Under the pieces are notes generated by a model. That model had not been told where the DNA came from. It searched no databases and was given only the letters and a program-made list of their open reading frames with translations. From Luteolibacter luteus (GTDB lineage: Bacteria > Verrucomicrobiota > Verrucomicrobiia > Verrucomicrobiales > Akkermansiaceae), in the NCBI RefSeq assembly GCF_012913485.1, contig NZ_CP051774.1, positions 3,844,001-3,908,000 on the forward strand: DNA of 64,000 nt, given 5' to 3'. The translations under genes and the position numbers were made by a program. Shown here in pieces: positions 4,881 to 47,042 of this stretch (positions within the stretch are counted from its first letter, which is position 1; each line of letters opens with the position of its first letter).

Positions 4881-5047
4881 TCCAATACAACTCCCGACGG
4901 GGGAACCTCGTAGCGAGATCGCACGCCCGGCGGGAAGTTGTATTGGATAAGCGGGGTTTCTCAGGCCCCAATGTTCTCCCCCCAGAGAACAGCATTATAG
5001 TGGCATTGTTCATGCCAACTTTCTTCATGTGGAGGCTGTCATTTCGT
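4881..5047 (+). repeat. Structured ~160-bp repeat, copy A
   Basis: Copy A of an imperfect direct repeat whose other copy is at 5925-6078. From the shared 14-mer GCACGCCCGGCGGG (4921-4934) onward the two copies align with only small indels to the end of the element. It folds into several stems: a long outer stem (TCCAATACAACTCCCG at 4881-4896 with a near-perfect complement at 4931-4947), GGGG/CCCC (4953-4956 with 4966-4969), GTTCTC/GAGAAC (4973-4978 with 4985-4990) and GGCAT/ATGCC (5002-5006 with 5012-5016). No coding sequence fits. It lies downstream of rlpA's terminator. Confidence 0.75.
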
Positions 5048-5198
5048 TATGAGCGAGTTGTAGCCGGAAGATGGCATAATGCATTGGAAAAGTCTGAGGT
5101 AAATCCTGCAAAACCTTCAAGATTTCCTGAATTTAATGCAGGCATTTTCATGCAATTCCCTGCAGCCCTTACGCAAGGCCCAGCTTTTCTGGAGCATG

Positions 5199-5231
5199 AA
5201 AAAGCCGCTGATCCTGAGGCGGATCGGCGGC
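5199..5231 (-). terminator. Intrinsic terminator for the small membrane protein
   Basis: An 11-bp stem (5204-5214 with 5221-5231, one G-T wobble) with a short loop. On the minus strand it is followed by a run of five T, and it lies about 20 bases after the stop of the gene at 5253-5888. Confidence 0.75.
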
Positions 5232-5252
5232 TCGAAAGGGACCTAGCGAAAC

Positions 5253-5888
5253 TCAGGCGGAGGCCTTCAAAATCGCGCTGGCAACGAAATGCGGAATGCA
5301 GAGCAAGATGGTGGTGATCAGAAGGTTGCGGAATCCGCCTTTCACTTGAAGCGCTGGTTTCCCCCGCGCTCCGAAATAGAGCGAAGCCAAGTTCATCAGG
5401 AAGAGAACGATGTAGGCGGCCAGCACCCAGCTGGCTTCGATCGAGTGGATGAAATGGTGGGTGATCTGTCCTGCCATGAGGCCGCTGAATGCGACTGCGC
5501 CAGTAGAAATGCTTACCTCCGGCAAGTAGAGGCGGAACATATCGACGATGGAATGGATCGCCCAAGGATCGCGCGTGGTGCCGTAAACGTCCTGCTGCAA
5601 GGGTACGAAACGCGGAAGGTGGTTGAAGCGTGGCCCGTGGTCGAGCTGCGGCCGGCTGTCGGCCATGAAACTGTCGTCAAAGGGATCGTCGTCCCCGTTC
5701 AGGGATTTGGCGGTTAGCCGGGGAGCCGGAGTCGGCATGGCAATCATCTTCGATTCCTTGGGCGCAGGAGCCGAAACTCTTGTCGCTGCGGGAATACCAT
5801 AGTCCTCCTCGACGACCGTGAGGGTCGAGGCTGGAAGTCCGGGAGTTGGGAGCGGACCAGGCGTGGGGAAGGGGTGGATCCTTTGCAT
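5253..5888 (-). CDS. Hypothetical membrane protein with proline-rich N-terminus
   Basis: An unrecognised protein of 211 residues when started at the ATG at 5888. The frame stays open to 6116, but the extra 76 residues overlap copy B of the structured repeat and look non-coding, so I chose the downstream start. The N-terminal ~120 residues are proline-rich and disordered (PFPTPGPLPTPGLP). Three hydrophobic helices follow at about 130-150, 155-178 and 190-208. The layout suggests an inner-membrane protein with a cytoplasmic N-terminal tail. It stands alone, has its own terminator at 5199-5231, and lies between the two repeat copies. No Shine-Dalgarno site is visible. Confidence 0.6.
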   Translation of the reverse strand: MQRIHPFPTPGPLPTPGLPASTLTVVEEDYGIPAATRVSAPAPKESKMIAMPTPAPRLTAKSLNGDDDPFDDSFMADSRPQLDHGPRFNHLPRFVPLQQDVYGTTRDPWAIHSIVDMFRLYLPEVSISTGAVAFSGLMAGQITHHFIHSIEASWVLAAYIVLFLMNLASLYFGARGKPALQVKGGFRNLLITTILLCIPHFVASAILKASA

Positions 5889-5924
5889 GGGAGAGAGGGG
5901 TGTGACGTCCTTGAAGGGAAGCTC

Positions 5925-6078
5925 TCCCCAAGCCACCTCCCCGCCGGGGGAGCCTCCAGAGAGACAGCACGCCCGGCGGGTTGGTTGTATTGGATAGCGG
6001 AGCCTTTCGACTCCAAGTTCTCCCCCCAGAGAACAAGAAGCTTTGGCATCCGCCATGCCAACAATACTGACATTCCGT
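5925..6078 (+). repeat. Structured ~160-bp repeat, copy B
   Basis: Copy B of the element at 4881-5047. The GTTCTC/GAGAAC hairpin (6007-6012 with 6019-6024), the GCACGCCCGGCGGG core (5967-5980) and the TTGTATTGGATA segment are conserved. The third stem is GGAG/CTCC here and GGGG/CCCC in copy A, a base-pair-preserving change. The GGCAT/ATGCC stem is kept although its loop differs (CCGCC against TGTTC). The outer stem is weaker than in copy A but has a perfect inner part, CCGCCGGG/CCCGGCGG. It lies just upstream of the start of the gene at 5253-5888. Confidence 0.75.
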
Positions 6079-6283
6079 GAATCGCTTACGTTCAAGGGAA
6101 TGGAGCGGAATTGCACCTTTCTCTGCAGAGTTTGCAGACCCTTAATAATGCAAGTATTTCAGGAACCGCTGAAATTCATGCAGGCTTACCTACGCAAATT
6201 TGCGCATGCCTGCTGGCGATGAGCCGCTTCAAAATCGGCTTATAGGGGCGCTTTTTGACACAAGCCCAAGGCCTTGCGGGCCT
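6079..6283. other. Intergenic region after copy B
   Basis: About 200 bases with no gene. A weak 6-bp hairpin (AAGGCC/GGCCTT, 6268-6284) touches the stop codon of the response regulator and could help terminate it on the minus strand, but it lacks a good T-run. Nothing else is recognised. Confidence 0.4.
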
Positions 6284-7648
6284 TCATTTGAGACCGTGGC
6301 GCTCTAGCAAATTGTATACGGAGCGCTCCGAAATACCCAGTTCCCGGGCCGTTTTGGCCTTGTTCTTCCCGCTGCGATGATAGGTCTGGATGAACACGTC
6401 CCGCTCCATTTCCTGAAGCGTTAGAGGTCGGCCGGATGAGCCCAAGGGACCATCGCGGCGGGTCTCTAGCAGGGGTGCGAGATCTTTTTCTCCGAGCGCG
6501 GTGCCGTCCGTGAAGGCGGTCGCTCTCTCAAGGACGTTTTCGAGCTGGCGGACATTTCCCGGCCAATCGAAGGCGAGCAGCGCCGCACCGGCAGCCTCAG
6601 AAAGCTGCCAGCCTTCAACGCCGCGGCGTTGGGCAATCCGTTTCAAGATATCCCCGGCCAAGCCTTCGATGTCCTCCTTGCGCTCGCGCAACGGCGGAAT
6701 ATGGAGCTCTATGATATTCAGCCGGTAGTAAAGATCCTCGCGGAAGCCGCCAGCATTCACGCGGGCCCTCAGGTCCACGTTCGTTGCTGCGATCACCCGC
6801 GTGTCCGTTTTCAGAAGCTTGTTTCCTCCGACCCGGAAGAATTCCCGGTCTTGCAGGACGTTCAGCAGTTTCGGTTGCAGCTCGGCCGGGAGGTCCCCGA
6901 TCTCATCAAGGAAAAGCGTGCCCTTGGAGGCCTGTTCGAAGCGGCCGGCCCGGGAGGAAGTCGCTCCCGTGAAAGAGCCGCGTTCGTGTCCGAAGAGTTC
7001 GGATTCCAGCAATTCCCTCGGCAGGGCCGGGCAGCTGACCGTGATGAAATCTTCAGTAGAGCGCGGGCTCAGGCGGTGGATTTCCCGGGCGAAATAGGTC
7101 TTTCCCGTGCCGCTCTCCCCGGTCAGCAGGATGGTGCTGTTCAGCGCGGCCGCTTTTTCGAGACGTCGCAGCAGCTCGCGCACCTTGGGGCTGGCGCTGG
7201 TGAGCGCCTTCGTCGCCTTCACACTGCTGCCGGGAAGCGTCGATGTCGCTGCTGGGGCGGGAATCTCTTTTCGCTCCCGGCGAATTTCCCTGAGGATATC
7301 GAATAATCTCTTCAGCTCGAAGGGTTTTGTGAGGTAATCGGCGGCACCTGCCCGCAGCGCCTTCACCGCCGTCTCCGCATCGTTGAGACCTGTCAGCATG
7401 ATCACCGGCAGGTCAGGGAAGCGATCCCGGATGCGCGATAGAACCTCCATCCCCTCCACGTCTGGAAGACCATGGTCGAGAACCACCGCCTCGATCGCCT
7501 CGTCCAGCAGTTCGAGCGCGTGATTGCCGGTTCCGGCCGCGACCGGCCGCCAGCCATGATCCTTGGCCGCGAACTCCAACAACCGCTGGATCGTGGAGTC
7601 GTCATCCACGATGAGCAGGTTTGGGGCATCGGAGGGGTAGCGGGCCAT
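6284..7648 (-). CDS. Sigma-54-dependent response regulator (NtrC family)
   Basis: 454 residues in the standard NtrC order. The receiver domain (about 10-125) has phospho-acceptor Asp58 and Lys108 in LTKPF. The AAA+ sigma-54 activator domain has Walker A GESGTGKT (177-184), the L1 loop as GSFTGA (224-229) instead of the usual GAFTGA, Walker B GTLFLDEIGD (243-252) and the arginine finger region FREDLYYRL. A Fis-type helix-turn-helix lies near 420-454 (ARELGISERSVYNLL). It should activate sigma-54 promoters when phosphorylated. The hybrid kinase encoded 97 bases upstream on the same strand is the likely partner. The serine in the L1 loop is a natural variant and should not by itself abolish sigma-54 contact. 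Confidence 0.93.
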   Translation of the reverse strand: MARYPSDAPNLLIVDDDSTIQRLLEFAAKDHGWRPVAAGTGNHALELLDEAIEAVVLDHGLPDVEGMEVLSRIRDRFPDLPVIMLTGLNDAETAVKALRAGAADYLTKPFELKRLFDILREIRRERKEIPAPAATSTLPGSSVKATKALTSASPKVRELLRRLEKAAALNSTILLTGESGTGKTYFAREIHRLSPRSTEDFITVSCPALPRELLESELFGHERGSFTGATSSRAGRFEQASKGTLFLDEIGDLPAELQPKLLNVLQDREFFRVGGNKLLKTDTRVIAATNVDLRARVNAGGFREDLYYRLNIIELHIPPLRERKEDIEGLAGDILKRIAQRRGVEGWQLSEAAGAALLAFDWPGNVRQLENVLERATAFTDGTALGEKDLAPLLETRRDGPLGSSGRPLTLQEMERDVFIQTYHRSGKNKAKTARELGISERSVYNLLERHGLK

Positions 7649-17442: not shown

Positions 17443-18453
17443 ATGAAGGCGTTAACTCCTCTCCGCCTGCTAGCTCTTCCTGCCGTGGTCCTCGCGGTGG
17501 CACCAAGCTGCAAAAATAATTCAGAAGCCCGCAAGGACCCCGAGTGGTGGCGTCTGGAAGGTGAGCGCGTGGAGTTGGCCCACAATGTCGATCTGCTGAA
17601 ACTCAAGTTGGCGAACAGTGCGGTCAATGGCACCGAATTCGCCGCCCGAGCCGAAGAGGTGAAACAAAATGCAGCCCGGATCGCCGAGCTGAAGCTTATC
17701 GCAGGAGATATCCGGGACGAGGTGGCCCAGCTCGCTTCCGCCGTTGACGAGCAGCACGAAAACTGGGTTCGCAGCACTCGTGCCGCGGCCGTGGGCAGGG
17801 AGTATGTCACTTTCACCGGCAGGGGCGGTCGCAGTTATGACCATGTCGTGATCAAGAAGGTCACCGATGTGGGCGTTGAAATCCGCCACGCCAACGGCAG
17901 CGCACGTCTTTCCGCCGCCGATCTGACCCCCGAGCAAAATGCCGAGTTCGGTCTCGACCCGCAGCTCGCTCATGTGGCCTTGGCGCAGGAAAAGCAGGAC
18001 GCCGCAGTTTACGAGGATTGGCTCGGAAGCCAGATCGCTTTGGCAAATGAGGCCAAGGTCGCGGCCGATGAGGCCGCCGCTGCCCGCAGGACGGAGGAGG
18101 TCCTGGTTGCCGCTCGCGCCCGCTCGGAGGCCATTAAGGCCAGCGCCGCCGCATACGAGGAGCGGGGAGGACGTCTCCGTGAACAACCCCGCAGCGTCGG
18201 TGGCACTTACTGGGGCGGCTACTATGGCCGCCGCTACTACAGCCCCTCCTACTATTATTATGGCGGTAGCAGGTGCTACAGCCGCGGCGTCGTGGGAGGC
18301 TTCGCCACGATCTATCGCGCGCGTTATGGGTCGGATACGGATTGCGGCTACAATCATCCGAGCCGGGTTTCGGCGGCCAGATCGGCCCCGGTTTCCCGAG
18401 GCACCGTGAGTGCCATCCAGACCATTTCGAAGGGCTCCACCGGTGTGCCTTGA
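17443..18453 (+). CDS. Envelope lipoprotein with coiled coil, beta module and Tyr/Gly-rich tail
   Basis: 336 residues. The N-terminus is a lipoprotein signal ending in APSC (Cys23). Residues ~30-110 are charged and heptad-like. A short beta-rich module follows at about 123-168 (GRSYDHVVIKKV, then VEIRHANG). It is shared with the proteins at 18867, 20136 and 45978 and has the shape GRxYxxVxIxxVxxxGxxI followed by a G..xLs/LP turn. Then come an alanine-rich helix (190-245) and a Tyr/Gly-rich low-complexity segment (about 252-283, with the run YGRRYYSPSYYYYGG). First gene of a three-gene run with gaps of 50 and 27 bases. Function unknown; an outer-membrane-anchored structural role is inference. 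Confidence 0.78.
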   Translation: MKALTPLRLLALPAVVLAVAPSCKNNSEARKDPEWWRLEGERVELAHNVDLLKLKLANSAVNGTEFAARAEEVKQNAARIAELKLIAGDIRDEVAQLASAVDEQHENWVRSTRAAAVGREYVTFTGRGGRSYDHVVIKKVTDVGVEIRHANGSARLSAADLTPEQNAEFGLDPQLAHVALAQEKQDAAVYEDWLGSQIALANEAKVAADEAAAARRTEEVLVAARARSEAIKASAAAYEERGGRLREQPRSVGGTYWGGYYGRRYYSPSYYYYGGSRCYSRGVVGGFATIYRARYGSDTDCGYNHPSRVSAARSAPVSRGTVSAIQTISKGSTGVP

Positions 18454-18503
18454 GTTTTCTCCCCGCCTGCCCTTCTCTCCCGTTACTTCTCTTCCAGTCA
18501 CCC

Positions 18504-18839
18504 ATGAATCCGATGCCCTCCCGCATGCTGCGACTCGCAGCTGCTTCTCTACTGTGCCTTTCTTTCAGCTCCTGCGGCGATGACCCTCAACTGGTCCAAA
18601 AGCGCGAGGAGCAAAAGGCCGAGATCCGCCGCCTTGATGGCGAACTGAAGGTCCTTCAGGAAAAAATTTCCCAGATCCCGGCCGACAAGACCTCCGAGCT
18701 CTCCAAGCTCAAGCAGGACTCCGACTTGCAGAAGCAGGAGATTGAAAACCTGGAGGAGGAAATCGCATCCCTGCAGTCCAAGAAGGCGGAAATCGAAAAG
18801 GCCCACGAAGCCTACAAGCGGAAGTACGTCATTCGTTGA
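18504..18839 (+). CDS. Small coiled-coil lipoprotein
   Basis: 111 residues from the ATG at 18504. An open frame begins earlier, but the earlier part overlaps the previous gene. The signal peptide ends in a lipobox FSSC (Cys24). Almost all of the mature part (30-105) is one coiled coil with heptads (EIENLEEEIASLQSKKAEI). It resembles Lpp- or Pal-like small lipoproteins in form only; I see no peptidoglycan-binding motif, and the C-terminus is KYVIR. It sits between two larger coiled-coil proteins, 50 bases after the first and 27 before the third, so a shared complex is a reasonable inference. Confidence 0.75.
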   Translation: MNPMPSRMLRLAAASLLCLSFSSCGDDPQLVQKREEQKAEIRRLDGELKVLQEKISQIPADKTSELSKLKQDSDLQKQEIENLEEEIASLQSKKAEIEKAHEAYKRKYVIR

Positions 18840-18866
18840 TCCAGCGCTCTATTCCCGGAAGTTACC

Positions 18867-19925
18867 ATGGGTTTTTCTGACCTCCTCACCAGTAGCCGCG
18901 GGCCTGGCGTCATCGGCACTCTGCTCGCCCTCCTCGTTCTCGTGGGCTTTGGCACCTTGTACATGTTTGTCTTCGACGAAGGCTTGCAGGGCGGAGGAAA
19001 GAGGATCGAGTCGGTGATCCGCGAAGACGCCCTCACGATTGAGAGCCACAAGCGCCAGATCGAAAGCCTGAAGAAGATGATCGATGAGGGCAATCGCTTG
19101 AAGGAGCAGGCCCTTGAGATGGAGCAGGTAAAGGTCCGCCTTGAAAGCGGCGCCAAGGCCAAGGCCGAGAAGGAAGCCTCCCGGGACGAAGCCATCGCGA
19201 TCAAGGAAGCCGCCGACAAGGCGTGGGAAGACTATAAGGATGCCTATCGCGCTTCGGAGTGGGCTGCCGCCCAAGGCGAGGAGCTTGGTGATATCCGCTC
19301 GCTCTCCGGGCGGAACTACAAGAACGTGGTGATTCGGAAGGTGGAGCACACCGGCATTCAGATCACGGACGAGACAGGCCCGAAGAGCATCGACAGCGAC
19401 GAGCTCCCGCTGGAGCTTCAGGATCGCTTCCAATTCAGCCAGGAGAAGAAGGCGGAGGTCGTTACCAAGCGCGATACCGAGTTCCAGAATCTCTCTGACA
19501 ATGTGGACATCGCCAACCTTGCCAAGAAGGGTCAGGACAAGCTGGAGCGTGTCCGAATCCTGAATCAAGGGATCGAGGATGCGAACAGCGGCATCCAGAC
19601 TTGCAAGGCGGCCGAGCCGATCCACCTCCGCAAGGTGGACTTCATCCGTGCGGAACTTGCGGAAGAACAGGAAAAGGCTTCCCGCCGTTCCAGCAGCCGG
19701 GCACAGGGCATCAACAAGACTCCTCAGATTCGCGAGCGTCTCCGCGTGGCCGAAAACAAGGTCGCGGCAAATCGGAAGCAAATCTCCGAACACGAGAGAA
19801 CCATCCGCGATAGCAAGCGCGAGATCACCCAGCTCGAGCGCGAGGTGGACTACATCAAAGCCGAAATCTCCAAGTTGAAGAAGGAGATGGAGGCGAAGCA
19901 GAGTGCGCAGCAGGACAAGCCCTAA
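18867..19925 (+). CDS. Single-pass membrane coiled-coil protein with beta module
   Basis: 352 residues. It begins MGFSDLLTSSRGPGVIGTL, followed by one transmembrane helix (about 15-36). Long coiled coils run over roughly 40-130 and 190-345. Between them is the beta module (about 146-190: GRNYKNVVIRKV, TGIQI, then a DELP turn and a helix). It is a clear paralog of the protein at 45978-47042, which begins almost identically and has the same layout and length. The third gene in the run that starts at 17443. The short N-terminus before the helix and the lysine-rich ends suggest an inner-membrane anchor with a long periplasmic or cytosolic coil. No known family is recognised with confidence. Confidence 0.8.
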   Translation: MGFSDLLTSSRGPGVIGTLLALLVLVGFGTLYMFVFDEGLQGGGKRIESVIREDALTIESHKRQIESLKKMIDEGNRLKEQALEMEQVKVRLESGAKAKAEKEASRDEAIAIKEAADKAWEDYKDAYRASEWAAAQGEELGDIRSLSGRNYKNVVIRKVEHTGIQITDETGPKSIDSDELPLELQDRFQFSQEKKAEVVTKRDTEFQNLSDNVDIANLAKKGQDKLERVRILNQGIEDANSGIQTCKAAEPIHLRKVDFIRAELAEEQEKASRRSSSRAQGINKTPQIRERLRVAENKVAANRKQISEHERTIRDSKREITQLEREVDYIKAEISKLKKEMEAKQSAQQDKP

Positions 19926-20135
19926 GGCGGCGAGCAGCAGCGGATTGACTGTTTATTATTCTTCCCCGATTTCTGCGGACAAAAGGCAGGAACGGCACAC
20001 TTATCAAAGATAGCGACGGGCTGCGGGCCAAGGCCTTTGCGTTCGGAACTTCAGACGGCACGGGCCTCGGAACCTCCCTTTCCCGGCGGCTTTCAGATTC
20101 GTTGCTCACCCTTCTCCTCACCACGTTTCGAGCCC

Positions 20136-21119
20136 ATGTTTAATAACGACGAACAGTCGGGAATGGTAGGCATGCTTGTCGGCATGATCGTCCTCGTGTT
20201 CGCGGGCGTCTTCTTCTCCTTGCTGGCAGACAAGCGCTTCAGCTTTTCCAAGAACCAGAGTTCGATCTCCCAAACGATCGAGGAAGAAAAGCTGGAGCTC
20301 GAAAACGTGAAACGCGAGCTGGAGGGCGCGCGCGCTGATTGGAAGCGTGAATATGAACCGCGCACGGGACAAGAGGAGCTTATTGCGACCATTACCCGCG
20401 ATTCGCAGGCCAGCCGTCGCCGCTTGGAAACCTTGGGCGAAGAGCGCGATGCCGCCGCGGAGGAGGCGAAACGGGTCGCCGATGCCTTCGCCGAATACCA
20501 AGGCCGCTATCGCCAGCAGGTCCGCGCGGAAGCAGCCGGCGAGAAGGTTGGCGAACTTACCACGCGCGGCGGTCGCACCTACCGCGACGTGACGATCTGG
20601 CGTGTGTCGGCCGCAGGTGCGGAAATCCGTCATTCCGAGGGCTCCACCCGTTTGTCGCCAAATGAATTGCCGGTGACTTGGAATGACCGCTTCCAGTGGG
20701 ACAAGGCCGAACTGGCCCAACATCTGGATGAGGAACGCGAGGCCGAGGAACAGCACAAGCAGTTCGTCGATAGTAAGAACAATCCTCCCGAGCCCCCTCA
20801 AAAGACTTCCGGCAAGAAGCCGAAGCCCGCCAAACCGGACGAGGATCCGGAGTATCTAGCCCGTGTAGAAGTTCTTCGGCAGGCGGTGATCGATACCCGG
20901 CTGAAGCTGAATCAGGCCAGGACGGAAGCCAACCGCGCGCGCTATGAAGCTGCCTCGGGAAAGGGTCGGTCGGTTCCCGGGAGCTTGGAGACCTGGGCGG
21001 AGCGGGCGCGGCGCATGGAGGCCTCCAGTGCGAAGTTCCATGCCCAGTACATGGCCGCACGCGGCAAGCTCGCCTCGGTGGCGCCGAATGACTATCAGCT
21101 TCAGGTCCAAGACCAGTAA
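20136..21119 (+). CDS. Single-pass membrane coiled-coil protein with beta module, third variant
   Basis: 327 residues from the ATG at 20136; an earlier in-frame ATG at 20037 would add residues before a clear membrane anchor. The transmembrane helix is at about 9-30. A coiled coil follows (45-125), then the beta module (about 143-187: GRTYRDVTIWRV, AEIRHSEG, ELPVTW). A Pro/Lys-rich linker comes near 210-235 (KTSGKKPKPAKPDEDP), and a final helical region ends the protein. The N-terminal sequence differs from the MGFSDLL type, but the module is closest to that of the lipoprotein at 17443. It lies 210 bases after the three-gene run and probably has its own promoter. A hairpin at 21160-21183 follows. 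Confidence 0.78.
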   Translation: MFNNDEQSGMVGMLVGMIVLVFAGVFFSLLADKRFSFSKNQSSISQTIEEEKLELENVKRELEGARADWKREYEPRTGQEELIATITRDSQASRRRLETLGEERDAAAEEAKRVADAFAEYQGRYRQQVRAEAAGEKVGELTTRGGRTYRDVTIWRVSAAGAEIRHSEGSTRLSPNELPVTWNDRFQWDKAELAQHLDEEREAEEQHKQFVDSKNNPPEPPQKTSGKKPKPAKPDEDPEYLARVEVLRQAVIDTRLKLNQARTEANRARYEAASGKGRSVPGSLETWAERARRMEASSAKFHAQYMAARGKLASVAPNDYQLQVQDQ

Positions 21120-21159: not shown

Positions 21160-21183
21160 AATGGAGCACCGGAGTGCTCCATT
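21160..21183. terminator. Bidirectional terminator between convergent genes
   Basis: A perfect 10-bp stem (AATGGAGCAC at 21160-21169 with GTGCTCCATT at 21174-21183) and the 4-base loop CGGA, between the gene ending at 21119 and the convergent gene ending at 21221. T-rich sequence follows on both strands. Confidence 0.75.
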
Positions 21184-21721: not shown

Positions 21722-21883
21722 GGTTCGGAAAATTGGCGAACGCGACTCCAAGCGATGCCGCGGGAAATGCCAAACGCCAATTTGCGTCCACTGGATAAAT
21801 CCCCGCCATACGCACGGTAGGAATTGGAAATCCGGGTCTTGTCTCCACTTGTCCGGCCCTCGTTCCGCCTTATCCTGCATCCG

Positions 21884-22522
21884 ATGTCAGCCCATCCGGA
21901 ACTTTGGAAAACCGTCCGCTGGCTTGCCTTGCTGGCCGCAGTGCTCCTGTTGGCTTGGCTCGGCGTCCGCGTCGTGGAGCGCGGCATCGGCACCACTACC
22001 TCCGGTTTGGGAAAAGTTCTCGGAGCCATCACTCATTCCGACACCCGGATTGTCGAAGGCCGGGCCGAAATTACCGACACCGCGGAGATCGCCGAGCTTT
22101 CCCTGCTGGAGATGAAGATGACCGCCACGCGGAGTTTCGAGAACGAGACCTATGTGTTGCGTTACCTCCCCGCGGGCACGAAGAAGCTTATTGTTTCCGG
22201 ACAGTACCGGGTGACCGCCGGCTACAAATTGAAACCCGGGATTTCTCTTCGGATGGAGAATGGGGTGCCGGTTGCCCGGTTTCCTGACCCCGAAATTCTT
22301 TCCGTAGAGCTCATCGACTACAAGCCGCTCAGTGAGAAAGACGGTTGGGCGAATGGGGTGACCGCGGAAGATCGCGCGCAATTGTTGCGCGAGCTTCGCC
22401 AGCAGATGCGCCAGGAAGCTCAACGCAGTGGCATCCTCGATATGGTCGAAGCATCGCTGCGAACCCGCTTGCGAGACCTGCTCGGTAGCGGCGATGTGAA
22501 GGTTGAGCGCGAGGCAAAGTGA
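21884..22522 (+). CDS. DUF4230-like membrane-anchored protein
   Basis: 212 residues from the ATG at 21884. One N-terminal transmembrane helix (about 12-30: LALLAAVLLLAWLGVRVV) is followed by a periplasmic domain. That domain has the pattern of DUF4230 proteins: a start resembling (A)ELSLLEMK, then the strands VLRYLPAGTKKLIVSGQYRV and LRMENGVPVARFPDPEILSV. The last part is helical (RAQLLRELRQQMRQEAQ). Function of DUF4230 is unknown. Its stop overlaps an in-frame GTG of the next gene, and the chosen start of that gene lies 35 bases further on, so the two are probably co-transcribed. Confidence 0.78.
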   Translation: MSAHPELWKTVRWLALLAAVLLLAWLGVRVVERGIGTTTSGLGKVLGAITHSDTRIVEGRAEITDTAEIAELSLLEMKMTATRSFENETYVLRYLPAGTKKLIVSGQYRVTAGYKLKPGISLRMENGVPVARFPDPEILSVELIDYKPLSEKDGWANGVTAEDRAQLLRELRQQMRQEAQRSGILDMVEASLRTRLRDLLGSGDVKVEREAK

Positions 22523-45977: not shown

Positions 45978-47042
45978 TCACTGGGCCGCTGCCGGGGCCG
46001 CGGCTCCCGCGGCGGCTTCCTCCGCGGCCTTTTTCTCGATGATCTCCTTGCGACGCTTGATGAAGGCTTCCTCCTGCTCGCGGATCGTGTCGCGCAGCTT
46101 GTTGGCCTCGGCGCGCGCGTCTTGCGCGGCCCGCTGGTTGGTGCTGATGGCCGCTTCGTTTGCCTGCTCCTGATTCTGCAACTGGCGAAGTTCCGCTTCC
46201 ATCTGAGGCGCGCGGCTGATGCCTCCGCTCTTGGACTTCTCGGACCGGACTTCGCCTTTCTTCCGGTTGATCGCGGTGTGGAACTTGCCTTGGTTCTCCT
46301 TGCCCGTGCGGACCTTGCCATCCAACTCCTTGGCCTTGGCATCCAGCTGGGCGAGCTTCTGCTTCGCAAAGACAAGCTGCTCGTTCATTTGCGACAGCTC
46401 GGTGCTTTCGAAGTGCTCCGTCGCAGCCTTGGTCGTGGCGACGTTGATTTCATCCGCGCCTTGCTTGGTCAGCTGATACTGGTCCTGGAGATCATCCGGA
46501 ATATCATCCAGCGGGATGGTCTTGATACCGGTGGAATCGATGGTGCGGATGCCGGTGTGGTCCACCGAACGGATGGTGCCCTTTGGATAGACCTTGCCGC
46601 TTGCGATGCCCTTGATCTCGCGGATCTCCTGGCCTTCGGCCTGCTTCCAGACATGGCTGCGATAGGCGACCTTGTAGTCTTCCCAATCCTTGGTCTCGGC
46701 GTCGATGGCGGCACTGCCTTCCGCGATCTTGGCCTTGAGTTCCTCGATCTGGGTGGCGTTGGTCTGGGTGGCGGAGGTGAGCTCGCGGATCTTGGAGTCC
46801 TGGCCCTTCAGGGGCTCGGCTTCCGCGATCAATTTTTCGAAGGAGGCCTTCTGGGTCTTCTTGCCATCAAGTTCGAGGCCCAGGTCGCGGACGACAGCTT
46901 CGATCTTCTTGCCGCCGGCTTTTTCCATATCCTTGTCGAAGACAAAGAAGAGGGCGCCGAAGCCGCCCAAGACGAGGAGTGCGATAAGGGTGCCAATGAC
47001 ACCAGGGCCGCGGCCGCTGGAGAGGAGGTCGGAGAATCCCAT
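45978..47042 (-). CDS. Single-pass membrane coiled-coil protein with beta module (dispersed paralog)
   Basis: 354 residues, a paralog of the protein at 18867-19925. It shares the N-terminus MGFSDLLSSGRGPGVIGTL, the transmembrane helix (about 15-36) and the position and shape of the beta module (about 150-190: GKVYPKGTIRSV, TGIRTI, DDIPDDL), flanked by two coiled coils. The C-terminus is alanine-rich (EEAAAGAAAPAAAQ). It stands alone, 27 kb from the other members and on the opposite strand. The two copies of the MGFSDLL type differ in most coil positions, so the conserved N-terminus and module are likely the functional parts. Function unknown. Confidence 0.8.
   Translation of the reverse strand: MGFSDLLSSGRGPGVIGTLIALLVLGGFGALFFVFDKDMEKAGGKKIEAVVRDLGLELDGKKTQKASFEKLIAEAEPLKGQDSKIRELTSATQTNATQIEELKAKIAEGSAAIDAETKDWEDYKVAYRSHVWKQAEGQEIREIKGIASGKVYPKGTIRSVDHTGIRTIDSTGIKTIPLDDIPDDLQDQYQLTKQGADEINVATTKAATEHFESTELSQMNEQLVFAKQKLAQLDAKAKELDGKVRTGKENQGKFHTAINRKKGEVRSEKSKSGGISRAPQMEAELRQLQNQEQANEAAISTNQRAAQDARAEANKLRDTIREQEEAFIKRRKEIIEKKAAEEAAAGAAAPAAAQ

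Follow-up and report, generated by a model that had tools for sequence, protein, structure and literature searches.

Within a 64-kb window (the whole stretch of DNA analysed here, from the 6.41-Mb genome of Luteolibacter luteus), positions 17443-21119 hold four genes on the same strand, denoted A, B, C and D, which form an operon-like block. This block is a conserved, undescribed operon of paralogous, membrane-anchored coiled-coil proteins, three of which carry a phylum-wide module, predicted to fold as a small beta-barrel. The order A-B-C-D is conserved, and the adjacency of B and C is near-strict. The envelope of the Verrucomicrobiota is poorly understood, and an exported domain that occurs across much of the phylum, without entry in the family libraries searched, is now defined. 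The block also obeys a tight structural rule, in that anchor and barrel are kept a fixed number of residues apart, which is testable by coil length, and a counterpart gene pair in Akkermansia-like genomes gives it a bearing on a medically studied gut bacterium.

The Gene Block and the Kinship of Its Members

Gene A (17443-18453, + strand) encodes a predicted lipoprotein of 336 amino acids with lipobox APSC and lipid Cys23, in which a coil of about 80 residues is followed by the module (residues 122-176; 17806-17970, +) and by a tail rich in Tyr and Gly; its orthologues stand first in the A-B-C-D order. Gene B (18504-18839, +) encodes a small predicted lipoprotein, 111 amino acids long when read from the ATG at 18504 (the ATG at 18525 is also possible), with lipobox SFSSC and a coil that ends at a YxxxY motif, and has no module. 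The product of gene C (18867-19925, +; 352 amino acids) consists of a membrane helix, a long helix, the module (residues 139-188; 19281-19430, +) and an antiparallel helical hairpin. Gene D (20136-21119, +), which likely starts at the ATG at 20136 rather than at the TTG at 20037 of the open reading frame list, encodes 327 amino acids with an N-terminal membrane helix, a coil, the module (residues 137-193; 20544-20714, +) and a C-terminal helical part with the motif SVPGSLETW. The intergenic gaps are short at most loci of the block, and D adjoins C with a gap of 210 nucleotides here and of -1 to 143 nucleotides in relatives.

The first-pass annotation of the window had described four coiled-coil envelope genes with lipid or helix anchors, three sharing the module and B having the coil only. 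All four genes are present, and the sharing of the module is supported by BLASTP and by profile comparison. The gene that it placed merely nearby is D, the next gene of the same block, and the cluster of four has a fifth relative in the window: gene E (45978-47042, - strand; 354 amino acids), a solitary paralogue of C with the module and without a B partner, which is 35% identical to C over 341 amino acids and is the second match in the DNA search.

The module is shared beyond chance, with BLASTP expectation (E) values of 3e-16 for C and D, 3e-12 for A and D, and 2e-07 for A and C. The homology, which had been noticed for the module, extends past it to the coil and, in the case of C and D, to the membrane anchor as well: the profile-profile alignment of C and D (E 4e-37) covers 209 columns from the membrane helix through the module, and that of A and C (E 1.7e-17) covers coil and module. 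Over its whole length, B aligns with residues 44-128 of the C coil, and it ends where the module would begin; its terminal YxxxY coincides in the alignment with Y123-x3-Y127 of C. Because coils match other coils easily, B was subjected to a heptad-shuffle control, in which the B-C coil alignment scored 47.4, compared with a mean of 22.4 (standard deviation 4.1, maximum 38.4) for 150 shuffles; the excess comes mostly from the last two heptads of B. As judged from these alignments, A, B, C and D are paralogues, and B is most simply a paralogue without the module, although the coil alone would not prove kinship.

Conservation of Gene Order

Gene-order comparison finds A-B-C-D again in Luteolibacter marinus, in metagenome-assembled genomes of Akkermansiaceae and in most members of the genus, and the nearest named relatives at the locus are Luteolibacter marinus, a Haloferula sp. 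and metagenome-assembled genomes of Akkermansiaceae and Verrucomicrobiaceae. In members of the genus, the block lies beside a divergent pair that encodes a PfkB-like kinase and a 2-hydroxyacid dehydrogenase (names read from the sequences). In other genera of the family, all four genes occur at locus L126 and B-C-D at loci L123-L125, flanked by genes for a tRNA methyltransferase, a type II secretion F protein, aminopeptidase P, a xylose-isomerase-like protein or a CAAX protease. When functional partners were sought among the flanking genes, these turned out to be metabolic and other unrelated genes, differing between genera. The order and the B-C adjacency are maintained at 24-62% identity despite the changing neighbours.

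The four-gene and paralogous loci were examined by profile searches in six frames. B lies directly 5' of C at every four-gene locus and at L056 (arranged B-C-B-C), L058 and L059, while loci of E type (E in the window, L046, L055 and L073) are without B; at L057, no C was found by this search between B and D. Of 145 genomes sampled from the family, 60 contain a match to B and 104 a C-like match, and for 50 of the 60 strong B matches (in 44 genomes) C begins 10-136 nucleotides downstream of B. No C homologue was found on plasmids. The genome of the window has a further B-C pair, with neither A nor D, at L059 (G000:C1:4507104-4508162), and directly upstream of the E relatives at L046 and L055 a short gene, MerR-like as read from its sequence, takes the place of B (6723-7049 and 7083-7412, respectively).

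In genomes of the family that are probably Akkermansia-like, a small coil lipoprotein directly precedes a gene with membrane helix, coil and module. The lipoprotein resembles B in layout, without a significant profile score. One such pair lies at 4970-6471 (- strand) of L127, followed by a thioredoxin-like gene.

Distance from Anchor to Module

The coils show a heptad period of 3.44-3.52, and their length is nearly constant among orthologues. From the lipid Cys of A to the start of the module there are 92.4 residues (standard deviation 2.3, n = 18), from the lipid Cys of B to its YxxxY motif 80.1 residues (standard deviation 0.8, n = 32), and from a G-P-G motif in front of the membrane helix of C to its module 124.1 residues (standard deviation 1.3, n = 32), while the length of C after the module is variable, with a standard deviation of 18.5. 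Since the YxxxY of C precedes its module by 14 residues, A and B have arms of nearly the same length. In a wider survey, in which anchors were detected automatically and some were missed or mistyped, the end of the membrane helix and the module are 96-105 residues apart in most other membrane-anchored relatives, among them Akkermansia, and most lipid-anchored relatives have 81-116 residues between anchor and module, next to a separate group with the module right behind the signal peptide. This near-constant spacing is the strongest mechanistic hint from the block, and it points to a module kept at a fixed height over the membrane.

The Module as a General Exported Domain

Modelled alone, the module of about 55 residues (mean predicted local distance difference test score, pLDDT, 89.8; predicted template modelling score, pTM, 0.75) consists of a helix, four strands and further helices, and is predicted to be a small beta-barrel resembling the Hfq/Sm and SH3-like folds. 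The best structural matches in Foldseek are Hfq-like (target template modelling score 0.66-0.70, 1.5-1.7 Å over about 48 residues), with Methanocaldococcus Hfq in first place (probability 1.00, score up to 0.70, about 1.5 Å), followed by a designed SH3 barrel and Tudor domains, all with E values of 0.02 or worse and none passing 0.001. Sub-threshold sequence likeness to ProQ and to the Tudor domain of KDM4B points in the same direction. The likeness to these barrels lies in the predicted fold. Hfq/Sm proteins have a small five-strand barrel after an N-terminal helix; the model of the module, a monomer prediction, has a helix and four strands. The module differs from these barrels in having no significant sequence match and in being exported and coil-tethered. 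In Pfam, NCBIfam and the PDB it has no sequence match; the best hits of a PDB profile search have E values of 0.56 or worse, none of them Hfq. The SH3b and SHD1 families of Pfam give no match up to E 1 in A, C or D, and in nine further proteins with the module there is none up to 0.1. Conservation among 127 modules is mainly at turn glycines (G19 94%, G30 94%, G53 100%), with L62 (88%), H50 (77%) and Y33 (74%) in addition.

The module had been thought only loosely similar to PVC sequences and to mark a new system. It is in fact common in unrelated exported proteins across the Verrucomicrobiota, occurring in 124 of the 142 Verrucomicrobiales genomes sampled and in 78 of 195 genomes (39 of 107 genera) of the phylum, either right behind a signal peptide or joined to Trypsin_2, Peptidase_C1 or superinfection-immunity domains. 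From this follows that the module is a general exported domain and not specific to the system, while the operon is, and the claim of a new system therefore rests on the A-B-C-D operon and on the B-C pair.

To exemplify, a trypsin-like protease domain comes after the module at L061 (5911-7182), L063 (5293-6906), L066 (5407-6996) and L067 (5425-6786), with Trypsin_2 confirmed by Pfam for L061 and L063. The proteins at L063, L066 and L067 begin with a lipoprotein-like signal and a coil, and that at L061, located near 3.633 Mb of the window's own genome, is without a long coil. At L094, L099 and L107, from other members of the class, a signal peptide and the module precede a papain-like protease (Peptidase_C1, Pfam-confirmed for L099 only), and three tandem copies of the module occur in one open frame at G242:C5:22168-22725.

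Predicted Structure and Topology

The AlphaFold2 model of C has a mean pLDDT of 83.4 and a pTM of 0.46, at which the relative placing of its parts is unreliable. It shows the membrane helix at residues 15-36, a helix at 47-135, the barrel (strands 139-144, 150-160, 163-168 and 171-176, helix 182-188) and two long helices, 192-274 and 285-349. These two meet at a turn (275-284) with the motif G-I-S/N-x-x-P-Q, conserved in most C orthologues and present here as GINKTPQ (19707-19727, +), which suggests that the tip of the hairpin may be a contact site. Foldseek with full-length C gives helical and coil matches only, none at E <= 1e-3.

In 31 of 32 C proteins the charge of the N-terminal flank of the membrane helix exceeds that of the C-terminal flank, which fits an N-in orientation with a periplasmic coil. 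A and B, as predicted lipoproteins, are expected outside the cytoplasm. Together with the charges of C, this makes it reasonable to place A, B and C in a common compartment, while the placement of D is ambiguous.

Comparison with Known Systems

The first-pass statement that no system of such make-up had been described holds for what was searched: this is a conserved unit in which comparison of A-D with Pfam, NCBIfam, PADLOC and PHROGs gives nothing beyond generic coiled coils. Those in the collections of known defence or phage systems (PADLOC and PHROGs) are for B only, with none for A, C or D, and Pfam and NCBIfam show no enzyme domain in A-D. No description of the four-gene block was found in the literature searched, and the main text of a study of essential genes in V. 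spinosum makes no mention of coiled-coil proteins or lipoproteins (PMC12283558).

Several known proteins invite comparison. Braun's lipoprotein Lpp of E. coli is, like B, a small lipid-anchored heptad coil, and the lengths of Lpp and of RcsF set envelope spacing and signalling in that organism (PMC5736177). B is longer than Lpp, however, and is nearly always found beside a membrane-anchored coil-barrel protein. B proteins do not conserve the C-terminal Lys by which Lpp is linked to peptidoglycan: of 22, 13 end in R, 3 in K and 6 in other residues. B scores 12.9 bits against a cut-off of 43 with the NCBIfam Lpp/OprI model, and Pfam LPP is absent from the best 25 of its 49 generic coil matches. 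C shares with adaptors of the HlyD/AcrA/EmrA type an inner-membrane helix, a beta domain and a long helical hairpin, and EmrA is among the weak Foldseek matches of full-length C (E 0.04), but the order of the elements in the model differs and there is no lipoyl or HlyD match in Pfam. The flanking genes tested, variable as they are, include no transporter gene, and a distant partner is possible. Finally, a Verrucomicrobiota-restricted domain of 53 residues has been described on the lipoprotein WP_009060351, with a proposed linkage to the wall (PMC10260701). It was rejected as a relative: its probable homologues, taken from Methylacidiphilum-like genomes via the published signal peptide, match none of the models of A-D or of the module.

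A Proposed Set-Length Scaffold and Its Alternatives

The best-supported reading, which we hold tentatively, is that A-D are an operon which arose by tandem duplication and encodes a heteromeric coiled-coil scaffold anchored in the membrane, whose coils serve as a ruler and fix the height of the module. The anchor is a lipid for A and B and a membrane helix for C and D; behind it comes a heptad coil of about 80 residues (~12 nm) and, in all but B, the predicted SH3/Sm-like barrel, to which C adds the long antiparallel hairpin with its conserved tip. B would pair with the C coil as a module-free partner, the coils would hold all barrels equally far from the membrane, and the barrels and the hairpin tip would bind an envelope partner, be it peptidoglycan, another envelope protein or each other, in a complex that is structural and not catalytic. 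A bolder version, which we regard as unlikely, is an undescribed envelope machine with a hetero-oligomeric stalk of set length, Sm/SH3-like barrels assembled as a ring or collar at constant height, and the hairpin tip of C touching a partner across the envelope, its core being the two-gene B-C form with the Akkermansia counterpart.

Several observations weigh against the scaffold. The suggested pairing of B with C is drawn from gene order and coil similarity, and when the last 14 residues of B are removed its score with C is 29.6, compared with a shuffled mean of 20.4 (standard deviation 3.9, maximum 33.1); the similarity is then only 2.4-3.4 standard deviations above the shuffles, and for C the best shuffle beats it. 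Eight more B matches, in eight genomes, do not lie directly before C, the nearest C-like match on the same contig and strand being about 1.7-2.9 kb upstream, and E and single-copy relatives in other families occur without the operon. Common descent could account for part of the constancy in coil length, and correlation of the hydrophobic profiles does not single out the in-register offset of the coils. In D, lastly, the C-terminal flank of the membrane helix is the more positive one in 15 of 22 proteins (on average 3.4 Lys/Arg after the helix and 0.4 before), which suggests that the D coil may point into the cytoplasm.

Arms of equal length are as compatible with coils packed side by side in a single membrane as with arms that meet from two membranes. 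In the latter case A and B would extend from the outer membrane and C (and D) from the inner, with the modules meeting in mid-periplasm and joining or spacing the membranes. At position +2, behind the lipid Cys, A carries mostly K or R and B mostly G or K, and under the E. coli sorting rule both lipoproteins would go to the outer membrane. Two lipid and two helix anchors with equal arms of ~12 nm would suit such a bridge, as would the length effects of Lpp and RcsF (PMC5736177). However, the sorting rule is that of E. coli and may not be that of the Verrucomicrobiota, B and the C coil are alike when both are read away from their anchors, a better fit to coils packed in parallel in a single membrane, and the topology of D is uncertain. 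We consider the bridge possible but doubtful.

Taken at face value, the opposite flank charges of C and D would instead place D on the cytoplasmic side and A, B and C in the periplasm, so that the block couples both sides of the inner membrane. This is improbable, as the charge rule alone can mislead, the homology of D and C extends all the way from the membrane helix to the end of the module, and paralogues usually share a compartment. It is still less probable that the coils offer an SH3-like module to peptidoglycan in a cell-wall tether, with B acting like Lpp: B is a small coiled-coil lipoprotein with a C-terminus rich in Tyr, Lys and Arg, and the module has an SH3-like predicted fold and is also fused to exported proteases, but the Lpp-type C-terminal Lys is not conserved and Pfam gives no match to SH3b or other peptidoglycan-binding families. 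That the genes are duplicated generic exported proteins without joint function, as a common phylum-wide domain and solitary paralogues such as E might suggest, is very unlikely when order and B-C adjacency hold at such low identity as the neighbours change.

Features Downstream of the Block

A terminator-like hairpin of 10 pairs with a T-rich tail follows D at 21160-21183 (+), as a consensus match only. Farther downstream, at 21824-22522, lies a gene for a DUF4230 protein, which stays adjacent to the block in several relatives of the genus.

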